Part shown: piece after piece, positions 10,764-63,976 of the stretch
Numbering within the stretch: position 1 is the first letter of the stretch
Layout of the letters: each line of letters begins with the position of its first letter
Origin: Alkalidesulfovibrio alkalitolerans DSM 16529
Lineage (GTDB): Bacteria > Desulfobacterota > Desulfovibrionia > Desulfovibrionales > Desulfovibrionaceae
Length of the DNA: 64,000 bases
Assembly: GCF_000422245.1 (NCBI RefSeq)
Contig: NZ_ATHI01000003.1
Span: forward strand, 1-64,000
Reading direction: 5' to 3'
Notes under the pieces: generated by a model
Told to the model about the DNA's origin: nothing
Seen by the model: only the letters and a program-made list of their open reading frames with translations
Databases searched by the model: none
Translations under genes and position numbers: made by a program

Positions 10764-10799
10764 TCCGTTCTGCCTGGGTTTCGGTGCGTTCACGGCGAT

Positions 10800-11744
10800 C
10801 TATATGGGGTAGCCCAGGTCCATCAGCGGCAGCGAGAACTCGTCGGCCAACCACCGATTTGGCTCGCGGTAGAGGTCTGATATTTTCGCCGAAAGGGTAG
10901 AAGGCCAGTCCAGCGAGATGTTCCTCGATAGCTTAGCCTTGAGCCTCTTCTTGGCGGTTTGAGGGAGCAGGGCGGATGCGACCCCGCGCAGACGCAACAG
11001 AAGCGGGGATCCCTTGAGGGCGATATCGATCCCACTCGGGCGCGTTTGTCTCGGCGCCTGCTGGGTCATGAGCCTAACGGAAGTCTCTTCGTCGATACCG
11101 ATGAAACGCGACAACTTGGTCAGGAAAAACGTAGGGTCAGCCTTGAGTTGCTCGAAGGGGAGAACCAGCAGTTCATCCTTTGCATAATGCTTCAGGTACG
11201 ACTTGAGAAGGGCTTTGTAATGGACACGCCCCAAGGGGTTGTGCACCCTGACGTGCATGTATTTTTGATACGCTTCCTTGCCGAAATCGCGATCGACGTG
11301 AAAGCGCATCCATGCGGCCTGGAGATATTCTTCGAATGTACAATACGGATATTTTACTGGCGCACCTTTCAAATATTGAACATACATCGATTCCAGACAA
11401 TTGATCTGCTCGCGGACGATGAGGATGATGCGGGAGTCCGGGAACATGGCCTTCAGCCTCCGAGCCTTGACCGCCCGGTCTGCGTCGTGGTCCGACGACA
11501 GGCGTTCGTGTGAGATCACCGTGGGTTTGTCGGAATCGAGAAGGTGCCCACAAGGCTTTATCCGAGCCAAAACATCCTCGAACATTACCTCATCGCAGGC
11601 GATAATTGTTTTTAACAAGGCCCTGAAATCTTCATTCTGGTATGGCTTGCCGAGATGGTTTACCCCGGGGTGTTGCGCAAACAGATTCCTCTGTAGGGAT
11701 GTCGTGGCCGTTTTGGGGAGACCGATATGTACGAACGTGGACAT
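10800..11744 (-). CDS. Sulfotransferase family protein
   Basis: A 314-residue protein. HIGLPKTATTSLQ at the N-terminus is the 5'-phosphosulfate-binding loop of PAPS-dependent sulfotransferases, and RIILIVREQINCLESMY is the 3'-phosphate-binding segment. The remainder is helical and basic at the C-terminus. It probably sulfates a surface glycan made by this locus. GAGGTG lies upstream of the ATG at 11744. Confidence 0.7.
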   Translation of the reverse strand: MSTFVHIGLPKTATTSLQRNLFAQHPGVNHLGKPYQNEDFRALLKTIIACDEVMFEDVLARIKPCGHLLDSDKPTVISHERLSSDHDADRAVKARRLKAMFPDSRIILIVREQINCLESMYVQYLKGAPVKYPYCTFEEYLQAAWMRFHVDRDFGKEAYQKYMHVRVHNPLGRVHYKALLKSYLKHYAKDELLVLPFEQLKADPTFFLTKLSRFIGIDEETSVRLMTQQAPRQTRPSGIDIALKGSPLLLRLRGVASALLPQTAKKRLKAKLSRNISLDWPSTLSAKISDLYREPNRWLADEFSLPLMDLGYPI

Positions 11745-11770
11745 AGACGACGTCACCTCGATTTTTTCTT

Positions 11771-13153
11771 CTATCCGCGTAGCAATGCGTCCAGGCTCTC
11801 ACGGACGCGCGCTCCTGCCAAGCCGTCGGTGTTGCCCACGTAATAGTCGAGCACTTCCAATTCGCGTTCGCTGAACCCCTGGTGCAAACGGGTTTCAGGG
11901 GCGGAGCGGACATGGCGAAGCAGCATCTCGCCCAACTCATCCACCGAAGCAGCTACTTCGGCGACCCCATCGAGGTCGAGGCAGTAGTCCTTGATGCGCT
12001 GGTCCGCCGCTTCGTCGAAGGCGAACGTGACCACGGGTTTTTTCAGGGCGATGGCCTCGATCAAGGCCGTGGAGTTGATGCCACAGGCGACTGAGCAGCG
12101 GACCAGCAGATCCATGGGATCACCGCTGGATACGACGGTCAGGTTCGGGGGGAACTGCTGCCCGGCGAGACATTCGCGCAGTACGTTGTCCGAGTCCGCG
12201 TTCCCTTTTGCCTTGATGACGAAATCTACATCACCGTGCTCACGAGCCAGATCGACAAATCTCCGGTGCACATTGCGCACGAGGTTGGGCATATTCAGTT
12301 GTTCAAGGTCGCTGCTCAGCTTTTCGAACCCGATGCATTTTCTACCTGTGGATGGCAATCCAGATTTAGAGTTGAAACTGAAAAGCAATGCCAAAGGCCT
12401 TGCCCTGGAAATCCTGTCTTTTTTTTCCAGCACGCGCCGGGCCAGGTGCAGCGCATCGAGGCGAGGCATGCCGACCACTTCAATCTGATCAGGCCTCACG
12501 CATCCGGAACCGACCTGAATGTCGCGCTCCGCGTTGTTGTACACCAGTGATTTAGCCCCCTGAAAAGCGTTTTTCCTAGTTCTATAGACGTCCTCATAGA
12601 ATTTCTTCAGCAAATCTGTTTTGAGGCACTCTTTGTGGATTGCGATAAAAGGAATGCCAAGTTCGCTGCAAGCGCCAGCTAGCTCTTGTTCAGCGGCATA
12701 ACTGAAATTCCCAGAGAACACTGCGTCGATCCGCGTTTCACCGACAAGCGAAGGAAGGATTCTCTTCCACAGTTTCCTCAACGCATCCTTTCTCGTGTTA
12801 ATTGCTTCATCTTCGACCTTGTAGTTGTTGTCGTCGATGGTGATGGGCAACAGCTTCTCGAATACAGCCTTTACCAGGCGCCTGTCCAAGGCGTAGAGGC
12901 CGTAGGCCGAACTTTGCCCGAAGCAGGCCATGATGTCCTCTGTATGGCCCGCTTTGGGCAGAAAGAGGACGTTCGCCTTTTTCCGCGTGCCCGAGGGTTG
13001 CACCACCCTAATCTGTCGCTTCAGTTCTCGAGCAATGGCGGCGTGATCGTAATCGGCGTCGAGCTTGGAAATCCTTTTCGACGAGATTTCGGTGCGGAAG
13101 CTCTGGAGTCGATACGCAATGTAGGCCTGTGCCCGTCGCAAAAAAATGTTCAT
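11771..13153 (-). CDS. Putative GT-B-like capsule/surface polysaccharide protein
   Basis: A 460-residue soluble protein without clear membrane segments. The C-terminal half has SVACGINSTALIEAIALKKPVVTFAFDE, the acceptor-site-like signature of capsule and CDP-glycerol-type glycosyltransferases. VVGMPRLDALHLARR precedes it. The start at 13153 overlaps the stop of the next upstream gene by four bases (ATGA), which rules out the longer open frame. The exact reaction is unknown. Confidence 0.55.
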   Translation of the reverse strand: MNIFLRRAQAYIAYRLQSFRTEISSKRISKLDADYDHAAIARELKRQIRVVQPSGTRKKANVLFLPKAGHTEDIMACFGQSSAYGLYALDRRLVKAVFEKLLPITIDDNNYKVEDEAINTRKDALRKLWKRILPSLVGETRIDAVFSGNFSYAAEQELAGACSELGIPFIAIHKECLKTDLLKKFYEDVYRTRKNAFQGAKSLVYNNAERDIQVGSGCVRPDQIEVVGMPRLDALHLARRVLEKKDRISRARPLALLFSFNSKSGLPSTGRKCIGFEKLSSDLEQLNMPNLVRNVHRRFVDLAREHGDVDFVIKAKGNADSDNVLRECLAGQQFPPNLTVVSSGDPMDLLVRCSVACGINSTALIEAIALKKPVVTFAFDEAADQRIKDYCLDLDGVAEVAASVDELGEMLLRHVRSAPETRLHQGFSERELEVLDYYVGNTDGLAGARVRESLDALLRG

Positions 13154-14646
13154 GACATGCTTTTCGTGTTTTGTTTCATGTAGACGCGGTGGATTTCCCT
13201 GCCGAGATTGCGAACGTTTTCCTCCCGAGGTACGGAACTCATCTGCGAGTATATCTTGTCCACGTACCCGTCCACGGTGCGGTTCTGCACCGCCTTGGCG
13301 AAAAGGCGTACCCGCCGCCGATCGACCGTCGCGCCCTGAGCGATGCGCCCCAGTGCCTCGATCACTTCTGCACGGGAACGGACGGCGAAAACACCCTCGC
13401 ATCCCCGATACCACGAATGGCCAAAAAGCAGGGCTGGCGTCTCGCGGACAACGCTTTCCCAGCCCACGGTTCCCGACACGGTCGCAGTTGCTTTGGCCGC
13501 GTCGATGAGATCAAAGGACGTGTAGGTCAGCGGAACTAGGCGAACATTGGGGAACTCGGCCAGTCGTTCGTAGAACGAGGGGTCGCGAGCCCTCTCCGGC
13601 TTTTGGTGCATGCGGAACATGGAGTTGTGCTCCTTGATCACGATTTCCCAGCCTTCAGGAACGCATTCCGCAAGAAGCCGGACCATGAGCTCCTGGTGCC
13701 CATAAAAGCCTCCGCACGGGCAACACTGACGTTCCGGATCGCATTGCAGGGCCACGAACACGAACGGCTTTTGGAAATCCGGTTCGCTCGTCAACCGGTC
13801 GTATGCCTGCTGCAATCCATGCCGAAGCACGCGGTCCATGCCGTCCCGAAAATCCTTCTTCAGGTTTTCACGGGCTCGGCCGCGCAGCAGGTTTGCCGCG
13901 GCATCCCGTAGAACCTTTCCGTAAAGTCGTGTTCTCGAACTCAACACGCCACCTTTCTTCATCCGTCCGAACTTGAGTCTCTGGTGAAAAGGCATGGCCC
14001 CCGAGTAATCTTGCTTCAGGCGCTGAAGCTGTGCATCGAAGGATTCGCAAAGTTCCACGTCGCTATCTTTGTCCTCAGCTTGAAGCCGCCGGTACTCCTC
14101 GATGATCTCGGTGCACGGCTTGTCGAAGCGCGGGGCGGCCAGAACCCGGCATGGAAAACCCGTGCGGATGAAATTGACAGTGGGGATGCGGAGGTACGTG
14201 CAGATCGCGAAGATCGCCCAATCGTAGCCCATGTGCGGCTCCGTCGGAAATACAACGACATCGGGCTTTAATTCTTCAAAAACGCCCAGCCAGTGGGCAA
14301 GTTGGGCATGCCAGGAGTGAATGCGCCTGTGGTAATTCAGGGAACCTCTGGAATTGAATCGATCGAGCATCTTCAGATAGATTGATTCGAAAACAGCCAA
14401 GGCTTCAAGCGTCGGCTGGTCCGGCGTGCGGACCGGATAGCGCCTGCATTCCGTCGACCCACCACCTCTGACAGCTTCTTTGTTGTCCAGAAAAACTGCA
14501 TTCGGAAACAACGACCTCACGCGATCCCGGGTGGCAGGATTGCCGACGAAATAGGCGGGTTCCCAATCGTGGTGATCGTGCATGAATGCGGCCACATCAA
14601 TCCAGTAATCCTGTCCCGCCTGCGTAAAAATGGCTTTTACGCCCAT
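13150..14646 (-). CDS. Capsule-synthesis (Kps-like) domain protein
   Basis: A 498-residue protein. The C-terminal region has GFYGHQELMVRLL, EIVIKEHNSMF, TVSGTVGWESVVRETPALLFGHSWYR, a pattern of the capsule polysaccharide synthesis family that includes KpsS/KpsC-like glycosyltransferases. The N-terminal half is less conserved. The ATG at 14646 follows AAGGAAGAG. It is coupled to the downstream GT-like gene. It likely adds or extends sugars on a surface polymer; donor unknown. Confidence 0.65.
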   Translation of the reverse strand: MGVKAIFTQAGQDYWIDVAAFMHDHHDWEPAYFVGNPATRDRVRSLFPNAVFLDNKEAVRGGGSTECRRYPVRTPDQPTLEALAVFESIYLKMLDRFNSRGSLNYHRRIHSWHAQLAHWLGVFEELKPDVVVFPTEPHMGYDWAIFAICTYLRIPTVNFIRTGFPCRVLAAPRFDKPCTEIIEEYRRLQAEDKDSDVELCESFDAQLQRLKQDYSGAMPFHQRLKFGRMKKGGVLSSRTRLYGKVLRDAAANLLRGRARENLKKDFRDGMDRVLRHGLQQAYDRLTSEPDFQKPFVFVALQCDPERQCCPCGGFYGHQELMVRLLAECVPEGWEIVIKEHNSMFRMHQKPERARDPSFYERLAEFPNVRLVPLTYTSFDLIDAAKATATVSGTVGWESVVRETPALLFGHSWYRGCEGVFAVRSRAEVIEALGRIAQGATVDRRRVRLFAKAVQNRTVDGYVDKIYSQMSSVPREENVRNLGREIHRVYMKQNTKSMS

Positions 14647-14660
14647 TGACTCTTCCTTTG

Positions 14661-16550
14661 TCAGTCTGCCAGGCCAAGCGCTCGCCGCACGGCCTGCGCC
14701 AGGGAACCAGCATCCAGTCCCACCGCCGAGAGAACCTCGTCGTTCCTGCCGCAGGGCGGCGTCCCGGTCAGCCCCAGGCGCAGCAGCGGCGTGGACAGGC
14801 CTGCATCGGCCATGGCCGCCGCGATCGTCTCGCCCTGCCCGCCCTCGATGTAGTGGTTGTCCACGGTGATCAGCGCGCGCACATCGGCAAGCATATCGGC
14901 AAGCCAGCGCGGATCGACCCGGTTCAGCCAAGGCAGGTTTGCCACCCGCAGCGACACTCCTTCACGCGCCAGCAGTTCAGCAGCGCGGCAGGCCTGCTCC
15001 AGCATTACGGGGCCGTAGGAAATGAGCACTGCGTCGTTGCCCTCGCGCAGCACGCAGCCGCGGCCAGTTTCCGGCACATAACCCGCAGGCAGTTCAAATC
15101 CGATTTCGCAAGGCAAAATGCACATGCGCAGATACGCGGGGCCGTCGTGGCGTGCCAGGAAATGCTCAAGCAGTCCAGGTACTTCGGCTTCGCAGCACGG
15201 CTCCGCCTGGAGCATGCCGGGAACTCCCTTGAGTATGGCGATGTCACGCACGGACTGGTGCGAATGTCCAGGGCCTCCCGGCACAACCCCAGCGAGGTTG
15301 CCCATGTAGACGATCTTGGTTTTTTCCGTGGCGTTGTTGTATATCTGCTCGTTCGGACGGGGACCGAGGAAGCATGCAAAGGAATGGCAGACAGGCAGGT
15401 AACCCCGCAAAGCCAAGCCGCCCGCCTGAGAAACCATGTCCTGCTCGGCGATGCCGCATTCGATGAACCGCTCCGGCAACTCGCGCTCGAAATCCACCAG
15501 TCCGCAGTCCAGGCGCAGGTCGGCGTCTAGGGCCACGATGCGTCTGTCGCGGCGGGCTGCATCGAGAAGTGCCCTGCCATAAGCCGGTACGAGTCGTTCG
15601 ATTCGCCCGGCCGGAGTCGCAACCATCTCGCGAGCGACCCAAGCCACTTCCAGGGGGGCAACTCCCGCAACGCGCAAGACGTCGTCAATGCGCTCCCGAA
15701 GCTCGGCCAGCCCCTCGTCCACCAATTCAGCGGTGGGGCAGCCGCTGTGGAACCGGTAGTAGCGCTCGTCGTCCGGCATGGTCGTGTGCTCGAAACGGCG
15801 CACTCCCTTGCCCTTGATAGTGTCGGCGATCACCGCTCCGGGCCTCTCGGCTGCGGTCACCTCGCGTAACGCCTTTGCCAGGGCCGGAATGTCGTGACCG
15901 TCCACACGTCTCACTTCCCATCCGAAAGCCTGGAACTTGGCTTCGAGATCACCTAGGTCGGAGGTCTCGGCCACGGTGACGTCGGATTGAAACTTGTTGT
16001 GGTCAACGATCACCGTGATCTCGGGAAATCCTTGGTTGACGGCCCCTGGAAGGGATTCCCAAAATTGGCCTTCCTGCAACTCACCGTCGCCTGTGAGTAC
16101 GAAAATGCGGCATGGCTTGCCGTCCATGCGGGCAGCTCGTGCCAGCCCCTTGGCTTTGGAGACTCCCATGCCAAGCGAGCCCGTATTGGTGACGATACCG
16201 GGCGTATCCACGTCTGGATGACCGGGCAGGCCGCCGAGTCTGCGCAAGGAATGAATGTTCTCGAATTCCAGGACGCCCTGCGCGAGGAGCAGTGAGTAGA
16301 GGGCCGGGGCGTCGTGTCCTTTCGAGGAGAAGGCGATGTCGTTCGCGTTCATCTCGAAGAGGTGCAGCCAGGTGAGTATGTCCAGACAGGAGAAGCTCGT
16401 GCCTATATGTCCCGAACCAGCCTTGGCTATCATGTACAGGCAGTTGAGACGGCACATGTCCGCGAAAAGCAAGGCCTTGTCGGCAGCGTTCAAGTCAAGT
16501 GAACGCACGCGGTCGAATTCGGCCTTGGGAATATAAAACAAATCCGCCAT
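14661..16550 (-). CDS. Transketolase-family enzyme
   Basis: A full-length 629-residue thiamine-diphosphate enzyme. GSGHIGTSFS and TGDGELQEGQFWES with Asn belong to the cofactor-binding N-terminal domain. ALDADLRLDCGL and ECGIAEQDMVSQAGGLAL mark the pyrimidine domain, and the C-terminal domain is complete. One chain holds all domains. Housekeeping transketolases are usually elsewhere, so this copy may provide an unusual sugar or acyl precursor for the locus. Substrate is inferred from neighbourhood. Confidence 0.82.
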   Translation of the reverse strand: MADLFYIPKAEFDRVRSLDLNAADKALLFADMCRLNCLYMIAKAGSGHIGTSFSCLDILTWLHLFEMNANDIAFSSKGHDAPALYSLLLAQGVLEFENIHSLRRLGGLPGHPDVDTPGIVTNTGSLGMGVSKAKGLARAARMDGKPCRIFVLTGDGELQEGQFWESLPGAVNQGFPEITVIVDHNKFQSDVTVAETSDLGDLEAKFQAFGWEVRRVDGHDIPALAKALREVTAAERPGAVIADTIKGKGVRRFEHTTMPDDERYYRFHSGCPTAELVDEGLAELRERIDDVLRVAGVAPLEVAWVAREMVATPAGRIERLVPAYGRALLDAARRDRRIVALDADLRLDCGLVDFERELPERFIECGIAEQDMVSQAGGLALRGYLPVCHSFACFLGPRPNEQIYNNATEKTKIVYMGNLAGVVPGGPGHSHQSVRDIAILKGVPGMLQAEPCCEAEVPGLLEHFLARHDGPAYLRMCILPCEIGFELPAGYVPETGRGCVLREGNDAVLISYGPVMLEQACRAAELLAREGVSLRVANLPWLNRVDPRWLADMLADVRALITVDNHYIEGGQGETIAAAMADAGLSTPLLRLGLTGTPPCGRNDEVLSAVGLDAGSLAQAVRRALGLAD

Positions 16551-16559
16551 GTCGTGTTC

Positions 16560-18029
16560 CTATGCGTAATCGTCGTCGAGTTGGATGTAGATATCTTTGA
16601 GTTCGCTGTAGATATCCAAGGCCTCGGTACCCGGCTCACGTGTGCCGTTTCCACTGGCCTTGCGACCGCCGAAGGGCATGTGCGGCTCGGAGCCATAGGT
16701 TCCGGCGTTGATCACCGCGACGCCCGTCGCCACCTCGTGTGCAAAATGCAGCGCCCGGTCCACGTTTCGGGTATGGATGCAGGCGGTGAGGCCGTAGGGG
16801 GAATCGTTCGCCATGGCGAGAGCCTCCCGGTATCCTGCCGCCCGGTACAGGCAGCAGATGGGCCCGAAAAGCTCCTGACGCGAGATGGGATGGCCGGTTC
16901 CGATCTCCTCGATGATCGTGGGCTGTAGGTAATAGCCCCCTGCGCGGGCCTCGTCGCCTAGTCGGTTGCCCCCCGCGAGCACCACTCCCCCGTCCCGCCT
17001 TGCCTCGTCCAGGGCCGAAAGCATGTTGCGCAACTGCCGTTCGTTGATCACGGGGCCAAGATCGTCATCGTCGGTGTTGCCGACCCTGAGTTTGCCGGCT
17101 GCGGCAACGAACCTGTCGCGGAAGGAACCGTAGACCGAATCGAAAACGATGACGCGGCTACCCGAGGCGCACCGTTGTCCGGCGTTGGAGAAAGCCGAAA
17201 GGCAGGCCCACCTGACGGCTTTGTCCAGATCGGCGTCGTCGCAGACCACCAGCGCGTTCTTGCCGCCCAGTTCAAGTGAGACCCTAGCCAGTCGTTCGCC
17301 CGCGATCCTGGAAAGCTTTCTGCCCACTGCGGTGGAGCCGGTAAAACTCACCACGCCGACATCTGGATGCTCGACCAACGGTTGTCCTGCTTCCGGCCCG
17401 AGCCCCTGGATGATGTTGAGCACGCCGTCCGGCAGCCCCGCTTCCTTGGCGATACGCCCCATGAGCCAAGCTGTGGCCGGGGTGTCTTCCGGGGCCTTGA
17501 GCACCGCGGCGTTGCCGCAGATCATGGCCGGGAATATCTTCCAGGCCACGTTGGCGATGGGCGTGTTGGCGGCGACGATCAATCCGGCCACGCCTACAGG
17601 CTGGCGCACCGTCATGGCCTTCTTGCCAGGCGCGCCGCTGGTACATGTTTTGCCGTAAAGGCGTTGCCCCTCTCCGGCAAAGAAGAGACCGCACTGGATG
17701 GCTCCGTCCGTCTCCCCCAGGGCTTCCTTCGGAGCCTTGCCCGTTTCGGCGGCTACGACCGCCGCGATCTCCTTGCGCCGCTCCTTCATGCGTGCGACCA
17801 TTTCGTGCAGGATCATTCCGCGCCGCACGGCCGGAATGGCCGCCCAGGCCGGTTGCGCCTGTCTGGAAACATCAACGGCTTTGGCAACATCCTCGCTGCC
17901 CGATCTGGCCAGGCGGCACAGCACGGAGCCGTCGTGGGGATTTCGTTTCTCGACGCTCTCGCCGCGCTCGGGACCGGTTTCCCGGCCACCGATCCAATTG
18001 GGTATGATTTCAGGAAGTTCGTTCAGCAT
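16560..18029 (-). CDS. Aldehyde dehydrogenase family protein
   Basis: A 489-residue NAD(P)-dependent aldehyde dehydrogenase. VSFTGSTAVG is the cofactor-binding segment, VSLELGGKNA holds the catalytic Glu and NAGQRCASGSR the catalytic Cys. Length is normal for the family. It lies nine bases from the transketolase gene and 17 from the SDR gene, so these three likely make or oxidise one sugar-derived intermediate. Substrate not readable. Confidence 0.82.
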   Translation of the reverse strand: MLNELPEIIPNWIGGRETGPERGESVEKRNPHDGSVLCRLARSGSEDVAKAVDVSRQAQPAWAAIPAVRRGMILHEMVARMKERRKEIAAVVAAETGKAPKEALGETDGAIQCGLFFAGEGQRLYGKTCTSGAPGKKAMTVRQPVGVAGLIVAANTPIANVAWKIFPAMICGNAAVLKAPEDTPATAWLMGRIAKEAGLPDGVLNIIQGLGPEAGQPLVEHPDVGVVSFTGSTAVGRKLSRIAGERLARVSLELGGKNALVVCDDADLDKAVRWACLSAFSNAGQRCASGSRVIVFDSVYGSFRDRFVAAAGKLRVGNTDDDDLGPVINERQLRNMLSALDEARRDGGVVLAGGNRLGDEARAGGYYLQPTIIEEIGTGHPISRQELFGPICCLYRAAGYREALAMANDSPYGLTACIHTRNVDRALHFAHEVATGVAVINAGTYGSEPHMPFGGRKASGNGTREPGTEALDIYSELKDIYIQLDDDYA

Positions 18030-31385: not shown

Positions 31386-31576
31386 AAGTTTAAACCAAAA
31401 GCGACAACTTTGCCCCTCGTTGACGCTTTACGTTAAAGGTTTGAAATTAAAAAGATAAAAAGCAAAATCGCTTTTTCGGGCGACACTTTCTAAGTTTAAA
31501 CCGGAGAATCACCATTTAGTGATTGACATCACTTTTTAGTTCGGTATGATTGGGCCGTCTTCCACCGAATTAAACC
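31386..31576. promoter_or_regulatory. Operator region between repressor and early genes
   Basis: The 11-base word AAGTTTAAACC, with palindromic GTTTAAAC inside, occurs at 31386-31396 and 31492-31502; a partial copy, AATTAAACC, lies at 31568-31576. GCGACA(A)CTTT words accompany the first two. The region is AT-rich and lies between divergent repressor and Ner-like genes, so these are likely repressor or Ner operators. Confidence 0.55.
31523..31550 (+). promoter_or_regulatory. Early promoter (sigma-70 type)
   Basis: TTGACA at 31523-31528 and TATGAT at 31545-31550 are separated by 16 bases. It points toward the Ner-like and transposase genes, and lies between two candidate operator words, as a repressed early promoter would. 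Confidence 0.65.
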
Positions 31577-31594: not shown

Positions 31595-31783
31595 ATGGTT
31601 AAAACACGCGAGCAGGTCCGCAAGGAACTCGACAGGAAAGGAAAGTCCATCCGCGAATGGGCTCGTGAACACGGAATTTCGGACCGGACCGTATATGAGG
31701 TTTTGGCAGGTAGAAAAAAAGGCCGCAGGGGCGATGCTCACCGCGCTGCCGTTCTCTTGGGCATCAAGGACGGCGTGATCTAA
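31595..31783 (+). CDS. Ner/BcepMu gp16-like early DNA-binding protein
   Basis: A 62-residue basic protein: KTREQVRKELDRKGKSIREWAREHGISDRTVYEVLAGRKKGRRGDAH holds a helix-turn-helix (about residues 20-45). The pattern matches the small phage-associated family typified by BcepMu gp16. It sits first in the early operon, like Mu Ner. The ATG at 31595 is preferred (AAGAAGGTG upstream). Its TAA shares a base with the transposase ATG. Confidence 0.75.
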   Translation: MVKTREQVRKELDRKGKSIREWAREHGISDRTVYEVLAGRKKGRRGDAHRAAVLLGIKDGVI

Positions 31784-33888
31784 TGAGTGTAGACGTCAGG
31801 CTTATCGCGGACGCGCTGGATATCAGCGTACAGGCAGTGCATAAACGCGCTCTTCGCGAGTCCTGGCCGTTTACCGAAGCGACGTGTCGCGGCGGGCGCA
31901 AGCGTCTGTTCGACGCCGCGTCGCTTCCGGCCGAGGTGCAGCGCGCTCTTGCCATCCATGAAGCCCGTCAATCAGTTGAAATAGCCACCTCCACCCCCTC
32001 CAATCTTCCCGCGCCCGCCGCGCAGGTTCCCGCCGAGACGCGGGCGCTTGTGGCGGCGGTGCGGGAAGATGCCACGGACGTGCATGTGGGCATGCTGGTG
32101 AGCATGGACGAGGGCGACGCCAGACGGCGCAGCGAGGAGGCCATGCGGCGGTATCGGATGATCGAGCCGCTTCTATCCTTCCCACCGCGCGCGAAGGGTC
32201 GCCGCGAGAAGGCGGAAGTGCTGGCCGAGGCCCACGGCGTTTCCACGCCGACCTTGTACCGCTGGGAGAAGCAGTATCGCCAGGGCGGGATCACCGCTCT
32301 TATGGACAAGGTCCGCACCGACAGGGGGCAGGCCCGGACGCTGATCTCCCAGAAATGGGAGACCATGGCGGCAGGGTCCGGCATACGCCGGGAGAAGCTG
32401 GCGGAGATCGCCGAGGAAATGTCCCTGGCCGTGCGCGGCCTCTGGGCGCAGGCGAACACATCCGTGCGGCAGGTGCAAAACCTCGCCAAGCCGGTGCTCT
32501 ACAGGCTTTCTGTCGCGGCGGGGATGCCCGAAGCGGTGGCGAAGCGCTGCTGCAACGTCCCCCGGAAGTTTGTGGAGGCTGAGCGCCGGTATTCCATGAT
32601 CGCCACCTATAAGCGCGACGCCAAGAAATTTTACGACACCCACCAGACACCCATCTACAGGACGCGCGAGAACTACGCCCCCGGAGACGTCGTTTTCGGC
32701 GACGTATCGCCTTGCGACATTCCTGTTCTGCGGCCCGACGGCAAGTTGGCCTGGGCGCGCCTGATCGTTTGGCAGGATGCGGCCACCAACATGATCCACG
32801 TCACCGGTTACCTGCCCAACAAGGGTACCGGCGTACGGCGCGAGCATGTGGCGCTCTCCTTCGCCTCCATGTGCGCCCATTCACCCTGGGGCATGCCGAA
32901 GCGGCTCTACCTGGACAACGGGTCGGAATACTCATGGACCGAAATGCTCGACGCTTGGCGCGAGCTGGCGGTCTTCTCCGGCGGTGTTTTCGGCGGAGTG
33001 CAGCTGAACAGCGACGAGGGCCGGATCATCCGCTCCCAGCCGTTCAAGCCGAGGGCCAAGAACCTCGAAGGTATTTTCTCCGCACTGGCATGGCATCTGG
33101 GCTGGCATCCGCTCTACGCGGGCGGAAACCGCATCGTGAAGCGCACCCGGCGGCTGGGCAAGGCTCCGGAAGCCACGCCGCTTGAGGATTTGAAGCAATT
33201 TTTCGCGGACGCGATCCCTTACTACCACGCGACACCGCAGGGCGGCGACCACATGAAGGGCCGCTCTCCTGTTCAGGTGCTCAGCGAGTGGACCGAGCGC
33301 GGTTGGAGAAAGATGGTGGCAGATGAGGGAGCCCTGATGCTGGCGTTCTCGGACCGTAGCGAGAGGGTTGTGACCGCCGGAACGGTGTCCGCCGGAGGCT
33401 GGCGCTACTATCACGAGAAACTCCACCAGTACGACGGCGAGAAGCTGCTCGTGCGCCACCCGAGGCATGACCCGGTATGCAGCTATGTTTTCAAGGAATC
33501 GCGGCTGCTCTGCGTAGCCCGGCCCATGCCTGTTTATGACATGGCCGACCCGCAGGGTGCAAAGTACGCGGGCAAGCTGGCCCAGGAGGCCCGCAAGGCC
33601 GTGCAGATCATGAAGGGCGAAGTGGCCTGGCTGGAGCCGAGAGAACTTATGCGCGAATTTGCTGAACTGGCTGGCGTCAGAGAAGCCATAGAGGCCACCG
33701 ACATAGGGGCAGGACGCATCAGCGTTGTTGATCCCGAGGTGCAGGCTCTTTGCGACAACCGGCACAAGGCTGCCGAGCAGACGCTGGCCATTGCTGCCAA
33801 GTCACAGGATGCCGAGAAGCTCTCACTGAATCGCTGGGGGGTAAAGGAAGACCCGGCGGTCGAGGCTCTAAGGGCTCAAGGCTGGTAA
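31783..33888 (+). CDS. Mu-type DDE transposase A
   Basis: A 701-residue transposase. Residues 1-60 hold a Mu-type winged HTH; further DNA-binding helices lie at about 95-250. The catalytic core has Asp307 (FGDVSPCD), Asp378 (YLDNGSEYS) and Glu429 (AKNLEGIFSAL), at spacings close to the MuA triad, and a Mu-type beta-barrel and C-terminal region follow. It should bind the prophage ends and drive replicative transposition with MuB. Confidence 0.9.
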   Translation: MSVDVRLIADALDISVQAVHKRALRESWPFTEATCRGGRKRLFDAASLPAEVQRALAIHEARQSVEIATSTPSNLPAPAAQVPAETRALVAAVREDATDVHVGMLVSMDEGDARRRSEEAMRRYRMIEPLLSFPPRAKGRREKAEVLAEAHGVSTPTLYRWEKQYRQGGITALMDKVRTDRGQARTLISQKWETMAAGSGIRREKLAEIAEEMSLAVRGLWAQANTSVRQVQNLAKPVLYRLSVAAGMPEAVAKRCCNVPRKFVEAERRYSMIATYKRDAKKFYDTHQTPIYRTRENYAPGDVVFGDVSPCDIPVLRPDGKLAWARLIVWQDAATNMIHVTGYLPNKGTGVRREHVALSFASMCAHSPWGMPKRLYLDNGSEYSWTEMLDAWRELAVFSGGVFGGVQLNSDEGRIIRSQPFKPRAKNLEGIFSALAWHLGWHPLYAGGNRIVKRTRRLGKAPEATPLEDLKQFFADAIPYYHATPQGGDHMKGRSPVQVLSEWTERGWRKMVADEGALMLAFSDRSERVVTAGTVSAGGWRYYHEKLHQYDGEKLLVRHPRHDPVCSYVFKESRLLCVARPMPVYDMADPQGAKYAGKLAQEARKAVQIMKGEVAWLEPRELMREFAELAGVREAIEATDIGAGRISVVDPEVQALCDNRHKAAEQTLAIAAKSQDAEKLSLNRWGVKEDPAVEALRAQGW

Positions 33889-33909: not shown

Positions 33910-34635
33910 GTGGAAATCGCTGAAACCAAGTTTGTGCGCGAGGCGCTGGCCCTGGCCGCGCTGCTCAAGGAAACCCCCGGAGCGTCCGTCGGTGAGATCA
34001 TCGGCGAGACCGGCACCGGAAAGACGGTGGCGGCTCGCGCGATCATGACCAACCACGGCGCGATGAGGGTTTGCGCCTACGAGGGGATGAGCCGTTACGC
34101 CCTTCTCGGCGAAGTGACTGCCGCCGCCGGGATCGAAGGGCCTTCCACCAGATGGATGCGGATGCTTTCCGAGTGGGGTCCGAGCCAGACCGAGCGCCCG
34201 ATCCTGATCCTGGACGAGGCGAACAAGCTGCGCTGGCAGGCGCTGGAAGCCTTGCGCTACCTCGCCGACGAATGCGGCTTCGCGGTGCTCCTGGTCGGAA
34301 CCGAAATTTACGAGCGCCAGTTCGTGAGCGCCAAGACCCGGCCCCTACTGCTGCAGCTCGGGCGCAGGATCGGAGCCAAGCGCGCGCGGATGGGACACCT
34401 CGACCGCGCCGAAACCTTCACCCATGTGCTCAATGCCCGCTTCGGCGATGTGGACCGCGAGACGGCCACCAAGTTCTGGCAGGGCTGCCGCAAGGGGAAC
34501 TGGGGTGAGGCGGTGGAGCTGGCCGAAGAATGCCTGCGCATCTGCCGGGCGAACAACGTATCCGCCCTGACCATGCCGGTCCTTGAAGCGGCGCTGACCT
34601 GGACCGCCAACCGCAGAGAGGTAGGGGCGGCCTGA
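33910..34635 (+). CDS. MuB-like AAA+ ATPase
   Basis: A 241-residue ATPase with Walker A GETGTGKT (residues 32-39) and Walker B ILILDEANK (about 98-106). The family delivers target DNA to the transposase and gives target immunity. Start is GTG with AAGGAGG just upstream. The N-terminal HTH of classical MuB is reduced. It overlaps the next gene at TGATG. Confidence 0.85.
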   Translation: MEIAETKFVREALALAALLKETPGASVGEIIGETGTGKTVAARAIMTNHGAMRVCAYEGMSRYALLGEVTAAAGIEGPSTRWMRMLSEWGPSQTERPILILDEANKLRWQALEALRYLADECGFAVLLVGTEIYERQFVSAKTRPLLLQLGRRIGAKRARMGHLDRAETFTHVLNARFGDVDRETATKFWQGCRKGNWGEAVELAEECLRICRANNVSALTMPVLEAALTWTANRREVGAA

Positions 34636-34880: not shown

Positions 34881-35120
34881 ATGCTGCAGAGAACCGATAC
34901 CGGACGCAGAACAGGGAACCAGGCTTTCACCGCCATGCCGAACGGACCGATCTCCGGCGAGGCGCACCGGCTTGGCGTGGAACTCAAGATTCTGGCGCAG
35001 AAGGCCGGAAGCGCCCACGAGGAGCTGGTGATCATGGGAAACAACATGCTGGCGCTTGCCGAGCGGATTGAAGGCTTGGAGGGTGCAACGCTGAAACACT
35101 TTAAAGGGAGCGAAAGATGA
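34881..35120 (+). CDS. Small early phage protein, unknown
   Basis: A 79-residue predicted helical protein with a good AAGGAGAATCAC ribosome site. The second half (LAQKAGSAHEELVIMGNNMLALAERIEGLEG) looks like an amphipathic or coiled-coil helix pair. No family is recognised. It overlaps the Gam gene by four bases (ATGA). Confidence 0.6.
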   Translation: MLQRTDTGRRTGNQAFTAMPNGPISGEAHRLGVELKILAQKAGSAHEELVIMGNNMLALAERIEGLEGATLKHFKGSER

Positions 35121-35629
35121 GCAAGCGGATCAAGCCGCAGAGCGAGATCATCACCACGGTCGAGCAGGCAAAGGTTGCAATGGCTGAAATGGCGGAGATC
35201 GAGCGCAGCCTCGCCGCCATCGAGGCGGACATGAACGAGAACATCGACATCGTGAAGCGCAACGCGGACGCCGAAGCGGCTCCGCACCAGGAGCGCAAAA
35301 AGGCCCTGGCGACGGCGCTGAACGGATTCGCCGAGGTGAACAGGGGCGAACTGTTCACCAAGCGCAAGAGCCTGGAACTGCCGCATGGGGTGATCGGGTT
35401 CAGGCAATCCACGAGCATCGTGGCCAAGGCCAAGGTCAAGATGGCCCAGGTTCTTGAGAAGCTCAAGGACTTGGGATGGGGCGAGGCCATCAAGACCTCG
35501 GAGACCGTGAACAAGGAAGCCATGCGCGAGTGGACGGACGGCAAGCTGGAAGCCGTCGGCATGGAGCGCAAGACCAAGGACCAGTTCTACATCGAAGTAT
35601 CCGCCGAAGCCCTCAAGGGTGAAGCGTAA
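35117..35629 (+). CDS. Gam-like host-nuclease inhibitor
   Basis: A 170-residue protein with a long charged N-terminal helix (VAMAEMAEIERSLAAIEADMNENI) followed by RGELFTKRKSLELPHGVIGFRQS, the hallmark of Mu Gam family proteins. Mu Gam binds DNA ends and protects them from RecBCD; it is a relative of Ku. Position after B fits Mu order. Confidence 0.85.
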   Translation: MSKRIKPQSEIITTVEQAKVAMAEMAEIERSLAAIEADMNENIDIVKRNADAEAAPHQERKKALATALNGFAEVNRGELFTKRKSLELPHGVIGFRQSTSIVAKAKVKMAQVLEKLKDLGWGEAIKTSETVNKEAMREWTDGKLEAVGMERKTKDQFYIEVSAEALKGEA

Positions 35630-35649: not shown

Positions 35650-35928
35650 ATGTCTCTCACCAAAAGCGAAATCGTTCAGGCCGTAGCCGACAAGTCGGGA
35701 CTGACCAAGACCCAGGCCGCAGGCATCGTCGACACCGTGCTGCGGACCATGGTCGACGGGCTGCGCTCCGGCGAGTCCGTCAACCTCCGCCACTTCGGCA
35801 CCTTCAAGCCGGTGACGCGCAAGGCCCGCGAGGGTCGCAATCCCCAGACCGGCGAGCCGGTCATGATCCCGGAGCGCCAGGCCGTGACCTTCAAGGCGTC
35901 CAAGTCGCTGCTCATGGATGAACTGTAA
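35650..35928 (+). CDS. HU-family DNA-binding protein
   Basis: A 92-residue HU/IHF-type protein: LTKSEIVQAVADKSGLTKTQA at the dimer core, LRHFGTFKPVTRKAREGRNPQTGEPVMIP in the beta arm. AAGGAG precedes the ATG. Mu needs host HU for transpososome assembly, so a phage-encoded copy beside A, B and Gam fits. Its stop lies one base before the first hammerhead motif. Confidence 0.9.
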   Translation: MSLTKSEIVQAVADKSGLTKTQAAGIVDTVLRTMVDGLRSGESVNLRHFGTFKPVTRKAREGRNPQTGEPVMIPERQAVTFKASKSLLMDEL

Positions 35929-35994
35929 GGCGAAACCGCCCTTTTGGGCGGTCGTCCCGGCCAATCGGCGACCGGGGCCTGATGAGCCAGCCGA
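35929..35994 (+). ncRNA. Hammerhead ribozyme, type II, copy A
   Basis: The RNA folds as a complete hammerhead with stem II open. Stem II: GGC 35929-35931 with GCC 35986-35988. Core GAA 35932-35934. Stem III: ACCGCCC 35935-35941 with GGGCGGT 35946-35952, loop TTTT. Cleavage triplet GUC, with cleavage expected after C35953. Stem I: 35954-35960 with 35972-35978 (one G-U pair). Core CUGAUGA 35979-35985. Loop I TCGGC (35965-35969) can pair with GCCGA (35990-35994), a pseudoknot that ends at the ribosome site of the next gene. All conserved core bases are present. Confidence 0.85.
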
Positions 35995-36007
35995 AAGGAG
36001 AAAACCG

Positions 36008-37036
36008 ATGGAAGAGAAGATTATGGATGCAATTGGCGTGGTGTTTACCGGGTCGGACAGCGACGGCGGCCTGTGGGCGCGTATCGACGCTGACGGGAAT
36101 GTGGTTCCCGATCCCGGACAGGCGTTTTTCGACACCCATCCCGTCTGGGGCGGCATCAAGGATGTCGTGATCGACGGGCAGTACATGGTGCTTATTCCCG
36201 CGTTCTACATCAAGCGGACCTGGCTGACGGCCGGAGAGTATGCTGGCAAGCATGCCTGGCTGATCAGTGACAAGCCTCTGGACGGGTTTTCCATTCATCC
36301 GGCCTTCCGCCGTGATGGTGGCGACCTGCAGCAGGTGTTCGTCGGCAAGTACCAGGCCAGCATGGACGGCTCCAAGCTCTCTTCCGTTCCTGGAGTCAAG
36401 CCCGCTGTCAGCCGGAGCCTGACGCAGTTTCAGGCCGACGCCGCCGCGCGCAACGAGGGCGATGTCGACGGCTTCATGCTCTGGAGCGCCTACCAGTGGT
36501 CCGCGATTCAGTGGCTCTACCTGGTGGAGAATGCCACCATGGACAGTCAGAGCAAGACCGGTCGCGGCCGCGTGGACGCCTGGGGCAAGGGTGCGGCGGA
36601 GGTTGACGCCGAGGACGTGGCGCAGGCCACTTATCGCGGAATCGTTGGCCTTTGGGGCAACGTCTGGCAGTGGATTGACGGGCTCAAGACCGATGATGGC
36701 GAAATCTGCCTCTGGGACCGCCACGGCCGCAAGACATGGGTCGAGACCGGCCAGATTCCCGACTCCATTGACGACGCTGTTTATCCGGTGACCTTCATGG
36801 ACGAGAGGACGAACGAATACGACCTCGGCGACCTCTTTATCGTGGACTTCGGCGCTGATGAGCAGAGCGAGTCCACAGCTCCTGATTGGCAGTATTGGGA
36901 CAGCTATCGCGAGGCCTTCCCGATCGTGGGCGGCCACTGGAGCTACGGCGCGCATGCGGGGCTTTGGAACGTCAACTGCGTCCCCGCGGCGTCGATCTCG
37001 CACTCGATCCTCGGTGCGCGCCTGGCGAAGGAGTAA
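36008..37036 (+). CDS. Remote DGR target protein (C-type-lectin-like variable protein)
   Basis: A 342-residue protein, almost wholly one FGE-sulfatase/C-type-lectin-like domain. It is homologous over its length to the last about 335 residues of the tail fibre (shared THPVWGG, DGQYMV, GKYQASMDGSKL, YRGIVGLWGNVWQW, FPIVGG). It lacks the fibre's virion-binding part and any signal peptide. The C-terminus is variable region VR1. AAAGGAG (35994-36000) precedes the ATG and directly follows the hammerhead. It lies in the early region, between HU and a holin-like gene, and is bracketed by ribozymes. How the protein is displayed is unknown. Confidence 0.85.
   Translation: MEEKIMDAIGVVFTGSDSDGGLWARIDADGNVVPDPGQAFFDTHPVWGGIKDVVIDGQYMVLIPAFYIKRTWLTAGEYAGKHAWLISDKPLDGFSIHPAFRRDGGDLQQVFVGKYQASMDGSKLSSVPGVKPAVSRSLTQFQADAAARNEGDVDGFMLWSAYQWSAIQWLYLVENATMDSQSKTGRGRVDAWGKGAAEVDAEDVAQATYRGIVGLWGNVWQWIDGLKTDDGEICLWDRHGRKTWVETGQIPDSIDDAVYPVTFMDERTNEYDLGDLFIVDFGADEQSESTAPDWQYWDSYREAFPIVGGHWSYGAHAGLWNVNCVPAASISHSILGARLAKE
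36910..37036 (+). repeat. DGR variable region VR1
   Basis: From the shared TTCCCGATCGTGGGCGG (36917 on) to the stop codon this segment aligns without gaps to VR2. The two differ at 19 bases, 18 of them at codon positions 1-2, giving 12 amino-acid changes. Most changed codons end in C, as expected if the template has AAC there. The 3' part 37010-37031 is invariant and GC-rich, the likely initiation-of-mutagenic-homing site. Confidence 0.88.
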
Positions 37037-37063
37037 TGTGCCTTGCCCCTTGGATCATGCTGT

Positions 37064-37081
37064 GGCGGGCGAAAGCCCGCC
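37064..37081 (+). other. DGR-type hairpin/cruciform after VR1
   Basis: GGCGGGC (37064-37070) and GCCCGCC (37075-37081) form a 7-bp stem with a GAAA tetraloop, 27 bases past the stop. In BPP-1-type DGRs a GC hairpin with a 4-base GRNA loop downstream of VR is needed for efficient homing. The same element follows VR2 at the same distance. Confidence 0.8.
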
Positions 37082-37089
37082 TGTTGAAA

Positions 37090-37154
37090 GCGAAACCGCC
37101 CTGAGTGGGCGGTCGTTCCGGAGAGACGGCGACCGGGGCCTGATGAGCCAGCCG
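37090..37154 (+). ncRNA. Hammerhead ribozyme, type II, copy B
   Basis: Same fold and orientation as copy A. Stem II is only two base pairs (GC 37090-37091 with GC 37147-37148). GAA 37092-37094. Stem III 37095-37101 with 37107-37113, loop TGAGT. GUC, cleavage expected after C37114. Stem I 37115-37121 with 37133-37139 (two G-U pairs). CUGAUGA 37140-37146. Loop I CGGC (37127-37130) can pair with GCCG (37151-37154). Loops have diverged from copy A while stems and core are kept, which supports selection on the RNA. The weak stem II may lower activity. Confidence 0.78.
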
Positions 37155-37168
37155 AATGAAAACGAAAT

Positions 37169-37192: not shown

Positions 37193-37477
37193 ATGCAAAT
37201 AACGCACCCGCAGACTTTGGTGACCGCGCTTTTCCTCGGAGCCTATGCCCTGGGATTCCGCTACGGCGTTCCGGCCGCGATGCTTCCGTGGCAGGTGAGG
37301 ACGTGGGTATGTCTGGTCACGCTCCTGTTCGGGGCTGTGAAGAGTTCCGGGATGCCCTTGGCCCTCGCCCTTTGCGCGGACTGCATAGCTCTGCTGGTCA
37401 TGATCCAGGCTGACGACAAGGTGACCCTCGCCGTGTTCGCGTTGACGATGATCGGCGCTTACTCCTTGAGGCCGTAG
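37193..37477 (+). CDS. Small membrane protein, possible holin-like
   Basis: A 94-residue protein with about three hydrophobic segments (TLVTALFLGAYALGF, TWVCLVTLLFGAVK, ALCADCIALLVMI, VTLAVFALTMIGAYSL). GGGAG precedes the ATG. It directly follows hammerhead B. Small size and helices suggest a holin or other inner-membrane phage protein; no family is recognised. Confidence 0.6.
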   Translation: MQITHPQTLVTALFLGAYALGFRYGVPAAMLPWQVRTWVCLVTLLFGAVKSSGMPLALALCADCIALLVMIQADDKVTLAVFALTMIGAYSLRP

Positions 37478-37496: not shown

Positions 37497-37670
37497 ATGA
37501 CCCAGGACGAGAAGAAGCACGAACTGCGCAAGGCTCTTGCCGACTTTTTTACGAACCCGGCGGTGCTTGCGATGTGGCGTGGCCACATCAAGCGCAAAGG
37601 TCTGAGCTCGGAAGACGCCGAAGAGGTTGTCGGATGGCTGAAACTCTGGGCGAATGGAGGCAGTAAATGA
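37497..37670 (+). CDS. Small phage protein, 57 residues
   Basis: A short gene missed by length filters. ATG at 37497 follows GGAGGAG, and the stop overlaps the GemA-like start (ATGA at 37667). The product is charged and helical (DEKKHELRKALADFF ... SSEDAEEVVGWLKLW). No family is recognised, but signal and spacing are good. Confidence 0.7.
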   Translation: MTQDEKKHELRKALADFFTNPAVLAMWRGHIKRKGLSSEDAEEVVGWLKLWANGGSK

Positions 37671-38098
37671 ATAAAACAGGCCGTGGGCGACTGCTCTTTA
37701 TAGCTCACAAGGGTGCAAAGCAGCTGTGGGGAGACGATGAGGAAATGCGCCGCTCCATTCAGGAGATTCATACCGGCCATCGTTCATGCACCGCCATGGA
37801 TGACAAGGTGCTGACCAGATGGTGCTGGAAGCTCAAAGAGATGGGCGCGGACATCTACGTTCCTGATCCGGCTCCGCGCGGTGGACAAGACCTGACGAAG
37901 CCGACCACTCGGCAGCTCGCACAGATTGAACAGCTCGCTTTTGAGCGCGGATGGGAGGACGGGCTGAATGATGGACGTCTGCGTGGGTTCATCAAGCGCA
38001 CGGCTGGCGTCGACGATGTCACCTTTGCCAGCAGGAAGCAGGCAACCGACATCATCTCCGGCCTACGGCGCTGGAAAAAGCAAGAGGAGTCCAAGTGA
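37667..38098 (+). CDS. GemA/gp16-like regulatory protein (DUF1018)
   Basis: A 143-residue protein matching the Mu gp16/GemA family: LLFIAHKGAKQLWGDDEEMRRSIQEIHTGHRSCTAMDD at the N-terminus and LRRWKKQ at the end. In Mu, GemA affects host gene expression and DNA topology. ATGA overlaps join it to both neighbours. Confidence 0.8.
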   Translation: MNKTGRGRLLFIAHKGAKQLWGDDEEMRRSIQEIHTGHRSCTAMDDKVLTRWCWKLKEMGADIYVPDPAPRGGQDLTKPTTRQLAQIEQLAFERGWEDGLNDGRLRGFIKRTAGVDDVTFASRKQATDIISGLRRWKKQEESK

Positions 38099-38583
38099 TC
38101 GAACAGAAGCTGAACACGGAACACGCGCAGAAGCTGGAAGAGCTACTTCCCGCGAGCGTGAGGGAGCTGGCCGAGCATATCGGCCTGGACTTCGCCTTGC
38201 GCGTCGTGGAGAAGCTCGGCGGAACCACCCTGGACGTGCCGAAGGGAGACATTCCCGCAGGCATTGCCCGCATAGAGTGGCTTGGCGAGGTTCTCGGCGA
38301 AGATGTCGCCGCAGCTTTCGTGCGCCACTATGGCGGCAGTCGCGGGTTCTATATCCCGCGCTGCCAGGCTGCCGTCGCGGCCATGCAGGATTTGTCGATC
38401 CAGAAGCGCTTCGACGGCCTCTCCGAGCAGGGGCTATCGGCCCGTACGATCGTGGCCATGCTGGCTGTAGAGTTCAGTCTGACCGACAAGACTATCTGGC
38501 GCGCCCTGACGAGGATTCCCGGCGGTGAAAAGAAGGACGGCGGCAGGTCGCAGCAGATTGGCCAGCTGCCCTTGCCTCTGTGA
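38095..38583 (+). CDS. Mor-family middle transcription activator
   Basis: A 162-residue protein. The N-terminal half is the dimerisation part. IQKRFDGLSEQGLSARTIVAMLAVEFSLTDKTIWRALTRI holds the C-terminal helix-turn-helix of Mor/C activators. GGSRGFYIPRC precedes it. It likely switches on middle or late genes from promoters downstream. Confidence 0.8.
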   Translation: MIEQKLNTEHAQKLEELLPASVRELAEHIGLDFALRVVEKLGGTTLDVPKGDIPAGIARIEWLGEVLGEDVAAAFVRHYGGSRGFYIPRCQAAVAAMQDLSIQKRFDGLSEQGLSARTIVAMLAVEFSLTDKTIWRALTRIPGGEKKDGGRSQQIGQLPLPL

Positions 38584-63563: not shown

Positions 63564-63950
63564 GTGAGTCATGCAAGGGCGGGCGATAGCCCGCCCTCTT
63601 CCGGGTACGCCCAGCCGAGCCCGTACGCGACCCTCCTCGCGAAAATCGAAGAGGTGGAAGCCTACACACACACCGTGCTGCAGCAGTATCCGAAAATCGA
63701 GCGGTACGCCCTGTGCGCCGACATACGGGCGGCGCTGGCGAACATTCAGCGCCTCTCCATCGTCGCATGGAAGCGGTACCACAAGAAAACAACGCTGCAA
63801 GACCTCGACGTGGAGATCGAGGTTTTGAGGATGTGGATACGCAAATCGTTGCGCCTGAAATACATCACGCCGCGCCGCTATGAAATATGGGTGCGGCACG
63901 TAAACGAGATCGGCCGCATGGTCGGCGGATGGCTCAAGGCGGCAAGATGA
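63564..63950 (+). CDS. avd: Avd-like DGR accessory protein
   Basis: A 128-residue protein, the size of BPP-1 Avd. It is a basic four-helix bundle: LLAKIEEVEAYTHTVLQQYPKIERYALCADIRAALANIQRLSIVAWKRYHKK, then LDVEIEVLRMWIRKSLRLKYITPRRYEIWVRHVNEIGRMVGGWLK. The end, IGRMVGGWLK, is typical of Avd. Avd forms a pentamer that works with the reverse transcriptase. The GTG at 63564 is the only in-frame start before the fold; it has no clear ribosome site and the hairpin lies in its first codons. Confidence 0.85.
   Translation: MSHARAGDSPPSSGYAQPSPYATLLAKIEEVEAYTHTVLQQYPKIERYALCADIRAALANIQRLSIVAWKRYHKKTTLQDLDVEIEVLRMWIRKSLRLKYITPRRYEIWVRHVNEIGRMVGGWLKAAR
63577..63596 (+). other. DGR-type hairpin/cruciform after VR2
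   Basis: GGGCGGGC (63577-63584) and GCCCGCCC (63589-63596) form an 8-bp stem with a GATA loop, 26 bases past the stop. Size, loop type and place match the homing hairpin known in BPP-1-like DGRs. The same element follows VR1. Confidence 0.85.
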
Positions 63951-63976
63951 ATATTCAGGGCGGATGCCTGTCAACG

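Follow-up and report, generated by a model that had tools for sequence, protein, structure and literature searches.

Type II hammerhead ribozymes bracket a remote target gene of a diversity-generating retroelement in the early operon of a Mu-like prophage

Why does the target gene of a diversity-generating retroelement (DGR) lie between two self-cleaving ribozyme motifs? The question is raised by a locus in Alkalidesulfovibrio alkalitolerans DSM 16529 (RefSeq assembly GCF_000422245.1). The stretch analyzed, here termed the window, comprises positions 1 to 64,000 of contig NZ_ATHI01000003.1, is 64,000 nucleotides (nt) in length and contains a Mu-like prophage that displays a transposase, Gam, GemA, a Mu-type portal and protease I. 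One DGR target of this prophage adjoins the reverse transcriptase (RT) gene. The second is 27 kb away and is bracketed by two type II hammerheads, with which it forms the cassette under study. Comparison with related sequences makes it probable that the hammerheads process RNA between the genes of the phage early operon and that the DGR target was recruited as their cargo; the cutting itself would probably be ordinary RNA processing.

A sequence-only reading of the window had described two hammerheads of the same orientation around the target gene and an RNA of 1161 bases that two cuts would release, and both points hold, the second as a prediction. The covariance-model search that it had proposed matches the Rfam family RF02276 (Hammerhead_II) twice on the + strand, at positions 35928–35996 (54.3 bits, E-value = 2e-8) and 37088–37157 (52.6 bits, E-value = 5.7e-8). 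Both are above the gathering score of 37 bits, and the Rfam search of the whole 3.2 Mb genome shows no other Hammerhead_II. The parts are located as follows.

35929–35993, + strand: hammerhead 1 (HHR1), type II, from the Rfam match and alignment
HHR1, stem II 35929–35931/35986–35988; stem III 35935–35941/35946–35952; predicted cleavage 35953^35954
HHR1, stem I 35954–35960/35972–35978; CUGAUGA 35979–35985; pseudoknot 35966–35969/35990–35993
37089–37154, + strand: hammerhead 2 (HHR2), type II; predicted cleavage 37114^37115; CUGAUGA 37140–37146
35954–37114, + strand: predicted unit RNA after both cuts, 1161 nt

The required core is CUGANGA, GAAA and NUH, and both copies have CUGAUGA, GAAA and GUC intact. 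Stems I and III are closed and the open ends are in stem II, which is short (3 bp in HHR1, 2 bp in HHR2). The pseudoknot between loop I and the 3′ tail is CGGC/GCCG in both. Cleavage is predicted after C35953 and C37114, and these sites agree with a unit RNA that encloses the whole target gene. The hammerheads of L047, L121 and L123 share with the window an extra C behind stem II (GAGCCAGCC); these three sites are without the Mu-like marker genes used here.

The cassette is found in 10 sequences: the window, L035, L036, L037, L038, L039, L040, L041, L044 and L137. As far as the contigs reach, all 10 represent one locus (HU gene, cassette, next early gene) in one phage lineage. Both ribozymes are present in all eight sequences that span the cassette (the window, L035, L036, L037, L039, L040, L044 and L137). 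L041 has hammerhead 2 and a truncated hammerhead 1. The contig of L038 starts inside the gene and has hammerhead 2. L137 is in a record titled as an Alphaproteobacteria metagenome-assembled genome (JARFTV010000035.1), and its cassette has 94% protein identity; misbinning is possible. In six other genomes among the 288 of the bacterial family, the only matches are distant relatives of the target (32%–40% identity). Searches for an empty site by way of GemA and Gam (8 and 6 loci) gave same-lineage contigs only, and an allele without the cassette was not found among them.

Conservation was counted in seven of the eight spanning sequences, L037 being left out. Sites in the core, stems and pseudoknot of both ribozymes show no variation (0/108), against 55 of 297 third codon positions of the target (18.5%; Fisher p = 1e-8 with sites treated as independent). 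First and second positions of the target open reading frame (ORF) vary at 32 of 596 sites. Variable sites number 4/11 in the HHR1 loops, 0/12 in the HHR2 loops, 8/24 in the spacer behind the gene and 0/20 in the homing hairpin (37062–37081). When the second copy of L037 is included, one of 54 sites varies in the HHR1 core and stems and four of 64 in the whole of HHR2. A broader alignment, A1, holds 32 hammerheads, i.e. those of 28 of the 30 loci of the family Rfam search, both hammerheads of the window and two from viral sequences; L012 and L028 were omitted on account of an offset and a long loop. In A1, stems I and III and the pseudoknot are paired in 98.2% of cells, and the covariation was reached by none of 500 shuffles. 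The pseudoknot is paired in 96.9% of cells, and a doubly changed C-G replaces the common U-A only in the window's own two rows. The earlier remark that loops vary while stems hold is thus seen both in the alignment and within the lineage. On these comparisons the window ribozymes are real and are under selection.

In the window, the HU gene ends where hammerhead 1 begins, and the Shine-Dalgarno (SD) sequence of the target gene, AAAGGAG (35994–36000), is directly 3′ of the HHR1 pseudoknot strand. RF02276 matches are found in 102 of the 288 genomes of the family. From about 129 clusters among the matches listed, 80 loci were chosen, multi-hammerhead clusters and near kin first and then by score. 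The share of tandem hammerheads among the 80 is inflated and is not used as a rate, because multi-hammerhead clusters were chosen first. These loci were searched with a model, R1, built from A1, and the first hammerhead of each locus served as the reference point for gene context. Mu-like transposase genes are upstream on the same strand in 61 loci, downstream in 2 and on the opposite strand in 2. A transposase or Gam/HU gene is upstream in 65 of the 80, and a terminase or portal gene is upstream in none. Downstream in 48 of the 80 are relatives of the window's ORF 38095–38583, of its terminase or of its portal.

Gene borders were counted for 95 of 100 hammerheads, with repeats of one context, altered cores and the cut hammerhead of L041 omitted. 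In 80 of the 95 the stop codon of an ORF of at least 50 amino acids (aa) is within 10 nt of GAAA; for positions drawn at random from these stretches the share is 5.8%. An SD sequence with a start codon is found 15–60 nt 3′ of CUGANGA in 59 of the 95 (random positions, 13.3%). The same pattern is displayed by a viral contig, G370 (IMGVR_UViG_3300017605_000570, positions 9932–17520, − strand; also L280/L397), where 24 type II hammerheads occur in one 7.6-kb operon of small genes. An SD-like stretch and a start codon are 23–30 nt behind CUGANGA in 23 of the 24, and in 22 of the 23 gaps an ORF ends 1–7 nt before the GAAA of the next ribozyme; this count uses a looser SD pattern and shorter ORFs (at least 25 aa) than that of the 95 hammerheads. 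Because the order stop codon, ribozyme, SD is repeated, the hammerheads appear to be gene separators. A side observation concerns L045, L046, L050 and L113, which are Mu-like prophages where tandem type II hammerheads bracket a gene of about 260 aa; judged by eye from its translation, this gene reads like an adenine DNA methyltransferase.

The flanked gene belongs to a DGR that comprises a template repeat (TR), the Avd protein, an RT and variable repeats (VR1 and VR2). Its parts are on the + strand as follows.

36008–37036, + strand: remote DGR target gene, 342 aa, a stand-alone variable domain that shares 65% identity with the main target's C-terminal part
about 36917–37029, + strand: VR1, matched to the TR beginning at 63975
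37064–37081, + strand: hairpin 3′ of VR1, perfect 7 bp with a GAAA loop
60998–63550, + strand: main DGR target, 850 aa, tail-protein-like, carries VR2 (PHROG tail protein, 3e-38)
63594–63950, + strand: Avd (NCBIfam DivGenRetAVD, E-value = 5.5e-34)
63975–64000, + strand: start of the TR, which runs beyond the window and is matched by VR1
64241–65266 of the contig, beyond the window, + strand: RT (Pfam RVT_1)

The target is called remote because the TR, Avd and RT are 27 kb distant. VR and TR were compared over 100 positions, 24 of them adenines, and all copies were compared with the TR of the window. VR1 of the window differs from the TR at 12 TR adenines and one other position, and VR2 of the main target at 14 adenines and no other. 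Adenine/other mismatches of VR1 elsewhere are 10/0 in L035, 16/1 in L036, 11/0 and 14/0 in the two copies of L037, 10/0 in L038, 11/0 in L039, 12/0 in L041, L044 and L137, and 1/2 in L040. The VR of L138 (7/13 mismatches) was excluded, as its phage is a different one and has a TR of its own. Thus the remote target differs from the TR in an adenine-directed way and is a diversified DGR target. VR1 of L040, with one adenine and two other differences, is nearly the TR itself, as if newly rewritten with few mutations.

Among PDB entries, the structural model of the remote target (predicted local distance difference test, 93.7) matches TaqVP best, a variable protein of a DGR (E-value = 2.4e-16, with a TM-score of only 0.55), and the sequence profile also matches the TaqVP entry (E-value = 2.4e-30). 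There are 11 PDB matches to the model at E ≤ 0.001, which include TvpA and Mtd and also PvdO, ToxD and EgtB. The TR, Avd and RT are in one element, the variable protein is C-type-lectin-like and a hairpin is behind the VR, all of which are properties of DGRs. A target search of the organism's own genome gave nothing beyond the remote target, the main target and the TR. Sequence similarity marks the remote target as a copy of the main DGR target's variable C-terminal domain.

The early operon in which the cassette is located displays these features.

31441, + strand: weaker promoter-like site, 9/12, a consensus match only
31523–31550, + strand: promoter-like site TTGACA-16-TATGAT before the early operon, 11/12, a consensus match only
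31783–33888, + strand: Mu-like transposase A (Mu-transpos_C, 9.7e-6; PHROG transposase, 1.3e-54)
33910–34635, + strand: AAA ATPase, B-like by position (AAA_22, 2e-15)
35117–35629, + strand: Gam-like protein (Phage_Mu_Gam, 3e-42)
35650–35928, + strand: HU/IHF-like protein whose stop codon abuts hammerhead 1 (Bac_DNA_binding, 7.2e-32)
37193–37477, + strand: next early ORF, 94 aa, with hammerhead 2 as its leader; no Pfam or NCBIfam match
37667–38098, + strand: GemA-like protein (GemA, 9.3e-15)

A scan for promoter-like sites shows none on the + strand between 31551 and 38700. The motifs, their conservation, their placement at gene borders and the adenine-directed VR1 differences between contigs are observed; for transcription, cleavage in the cell and an effect on stability we infer the following course. 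An RNA from the promoter-like site at 31523 would run through tnpA, tnpB, Gam and HU, the target, and on to GemA. This polycistronic RNA would cut itself at 35953^35954 and 37114^37115, so that the target becomes a one-gene mRNA of 1161 nt. Hammerhead cleavage leaves 5′-OH and 2′,3′-cyclic phosphate ends. The 5′ end of the target mRNA, with its 5′-OH, would be formed by stem I, closely followed by the ribosome-binding site, and the 3′ end would be the DGR hairpin followed by stem III bearing the cyclic phosphate. Hairpins at both ends may protect the mRNA against RNase E and exonucleases. A stem III hairpin would likewise terminate the upstream mRNA, and every gene unit in such operons would be processed in the same way. 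The target gene was probably taken up behind a ribozyme, in a slot that is filled by other genes in other Mu-like phages. Diversification by the TR, Avd and RT would act on DNA, probably independently of the ribozymes.

Several observations weigh against operon processing of this type. The minimum-energy fold of each stretch differs from the hammerhead (HHR1, −34.2 versus −29.5 kcal/mol; HHR2, −27.3 versus −22.8 kcal/mol), in values that take no account of tertiary contacts or of the pseudoknot. The number of promoter-like sites is close to chance, with 3 found in all and 1.2 in shuffles. An SD sequence and start codon are missing from the required range in 36 of the 95 hammerheads, and 13 of the 80 loci are without any of the Mu-like marker genes used. 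The seven scanned proteins of G370 include no Mu-like gene, while terminase, portal and tail genes were found there; hammerhead placement is therefore not confined to Mu-like phages.

It is conceivable that the ribozymes serve the DGR instead, by separating the target RNA from other RNA and so tuning retrohoming or expression of the target. Both ribozymes are conserved within the lineage, and hammerhead 2 begins only 7 nt 3′ of the homing hairpin. Yet the main target of the same phage is without a hammerhead: in the stretch with the main target, TR and RT (L003), model R1 has no match at E ≤ 1. DGRs at large were sampled through stretches that contain a related RT; of 315 such stretches the best 80 were used. 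Many of their records are fragments, among them two from the window's lineage (G292 and G293) that stop short of the cassette. Model R1 gave no match in these 80 stretches or in six further loci, up to 10 kb on each side. Hammerhead_II is present in only four of the 80 whole DGR records, which may be fragments, and two of the four are of the window's lineage. In the remaining pair, G297 and G340, a single Hammerhead_II occurs between transposase-like and terminase genes, and each record displays only a main target and a TR. A general link between DGRs and ribozymes was rejected on these two counts.

Other remote targets give the same result. A search of 45 of the best 80 DGR records with the target shows seven other putative stand-alone remote targets (G299, G301, G303, G326, G329, G337 and G339; stretches L254–L260), which are far from the TR and RT. 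Hammerhead_II is absent from their records, which are possibly fragments, and no Rfam ribozyme over threshold is found around the genes. A single weak R1 match (19.9 bits) near the remote target of L257 was not counted. From the reading of translated starts, the remote targets of G337 and G339 (L259 and L260) directly precede a GemA-like gene, close to the slot in the window, and that of G299 (L254) precedes a Gam-like gene. An early-operon DGR target thus seems to recur across phages, and hammerheads do not seem to accompany such targets elsewhere. In addition, among 171 listed loci with hammerheads or a hammerhead pattern, the target domain is found in eight, all of the window's lineage; the scan of viral sequences for the pattern gave at least 80 loci. 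The sequence-only reading had made hammerhead conservation beside related remote DGR targets a test of its proposal. Conservation is complete in the lineage itself (8/8), but the absence of a ribozyme at the seven others counts against a DGR-specific role, which we regard as unlikely.

Recombination at the DNA level deserves separate attention. The ribozymes are repeats of about 70 bp and may act as homologous recombination sites by which one-gene cassettes are added, duplicated or swapped, which would be compatible with operon processing. L037 has the order hammerhead, target, hammerhead, target, hammerhead. Its DGR targets in tandem are as follows.

L037, 1254–2399: first target, a recombinant of remote and main target
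L037, 2141–3559: second target

No difference separates the two units between offsets 5 and 711, a stretch that takes in the ribozyme. Between 712 and about 985, a part of about 270 nt that precedes the VR, the first copy shares 81%–98% identity in blocks of 50 nt with the main target in its own record, but from offset 750 on it has only 46%–68% identity to the second copy. The middle ribozyme displays an HHR2-type flank but an HHR1-type loop III, and the joint is therefore within the first dozen bases of the motif, in its 5′ part and upstream of the cleavage site. From this single duplication event, recombination between DNA repeats seems a likelier origin of the tandem than an RNA circle. 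The mutual similarity of HHR1 and HHR2 (0.83) also exceeds that of their best matches outside the lineage (0.78 and 0.81 respectively), and the two hammerheads of L052 are likewise each other's nearest. Against these stand the paired ribozymes of L046, L049, L050, L061 and L113, which are no more alike than unrelated ones. Only one duplication is clear, and gene-length homology outside the ribozymes would serve recombination as well. A role as DNA joints is accordingly a possibility that we entertain without favouring it. Slightly more speculative is a ribozyme-punctuated array, where early genes would travel as units of hammerhead plus gene, the RNA would cut itself into one-gene RNAs with hairpin ends, and the ribozyme repeats would be the DNA joints at which units are gained, duplicated and recombined. 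The DGR target would have entered such an array and, in L037, have been duplicated.

A mobile unit was suggested in the sequence-only reading by the likeness to retrozymes. In a full version of this idea the unit RNA would circularize, be copied back to DNA by an RT and so spread or multiply the cassette. The twin hammerheads are direct repeats, as in retrozymes, an RT is present in the phage and L037 has two cassettes in tandem. However, the cassette occupies a single locus in all 10 sequences, copies outside the lineage were sought without success, and copies are not dispersed within genomes (there is one cassette in the genome, and only distant relatives in the six of 288). Retrozyme units are non-coding, whereas this unit contains the 342 aa ORF. 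A circle closed at the cleavage site predicts a loop III of HHR2 type in the middle ribozyme of L037, where the HHR1 type is found (one event). The template of a DGR RT is TR RNA, as far as known. Comparable prophage arrangements gave no circles or spliced products in the excerpted text of an earlier study (PMC3088659). None of the dispersed copies, out-of-lineage copies or circle-type joints that were sought supports the retrozyme or circle reading, which was rejected as quite improbable. Insulation of the target mRNA, which had been offered beside it, fits best. That the hammerheads are inert relics carried by the cassette would agree with plain energy folds that differ from the hammerhead, but the cores are intact, the ribozyme sites are invariant where nearly a fifth of third positions vary, and the family alignment shows covariation; this explanation is very improbable indeed.

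Operon processing by prophage hammerheads has precedents, which are compared here from excerpts of the papers cited. Perreault et al. (2011; PMC3088659) describe type II hammerheads of which multiple copies flank single genes or short blocks in prophages, and propose that these cut long RNAs into gene-length mRNAs. Three native arrangements cleave, the tandem ones in vitro and one in E. coli. The window is alike in the type II hammerheads, in the flanking of a gene and in the proposed operon processing. The identities of the flanked genes vary in that study, ardA being named and no DGR being mentioned in the excerpts, whereas in the window the flanked gene is a DGR target. Type II hammerheads, their flanking of prophage genes, their activity in vitro and in E. 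coli, and the proposal that they process operons were thus already described there. Hammerhead and twister ribozymes are also enriched near Mu-like phage genes, the reason being called unknown in 2023 (PMC10085705, of its references 25 and 26). Here the slot is resolved as stop codon, ribozyme and SD behind transposase, Gam or HU, and a DGR target is one of the cargoes.

In plant and animal retrozymes, two hammerheads form direct repeats at a distance of several hundred bp to 1 kb, and trimers occur occasionally (PMC6155905, PMC7761336). The window cassette shares the twin repeats at such spacing and the occasional trimer. It differs in that retrozyme hammerheads are of type III or I and those of the window are of type II; its unit codes for protein and is at a single locus, and neither a circle nor new integrations are indicated. 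Two-target DGRs have been described in phages (PMC10743442). As in those, one TR/RT serves two targets in the window, and the fold matches TaqVP, TvpA and Mtd; unlike them, the window has its second target at a remote site, within the early operon and between ribozymes. The approach of a large DGR survey would by its own account not detect stand-alone targets far from the RT (PMC8144416).

Searches of the open-licence literature in PubMed Central found no paper on a hammerhead ribozyme together with a diversity-generating retroelement, none on tandem hammerhead ribozymes with an operon, and for DGR with self-cleaving and ribozyme nothing beyond a review on RNase H. An early-operon DGR target was not found in the excerpted text of that literature on remote-target or Mu-like-phage DGRs. 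Within this literature, the DGR target as ribozyme cargo and the tandem duplication of the cassette look new, and so, as far as the searches go, do the 24-ribozyme operon and the occurrence of stand-alone DGR targets in the early regions of further phages.

The repeated slot of stop codon, ribozyme and ribosome-binding site makes the proposal that hammerheads cut operons directly testable, and the DGR target is a cargo with a readable phenotype, i.e. VR1 diversity. The finding further directs attention to DGR targets that stand alone, at a distance from the RT, in several phages. If early genes do travel as a ribozyme-punctuated array, the phage would gain a growing set of diversified early proteins.

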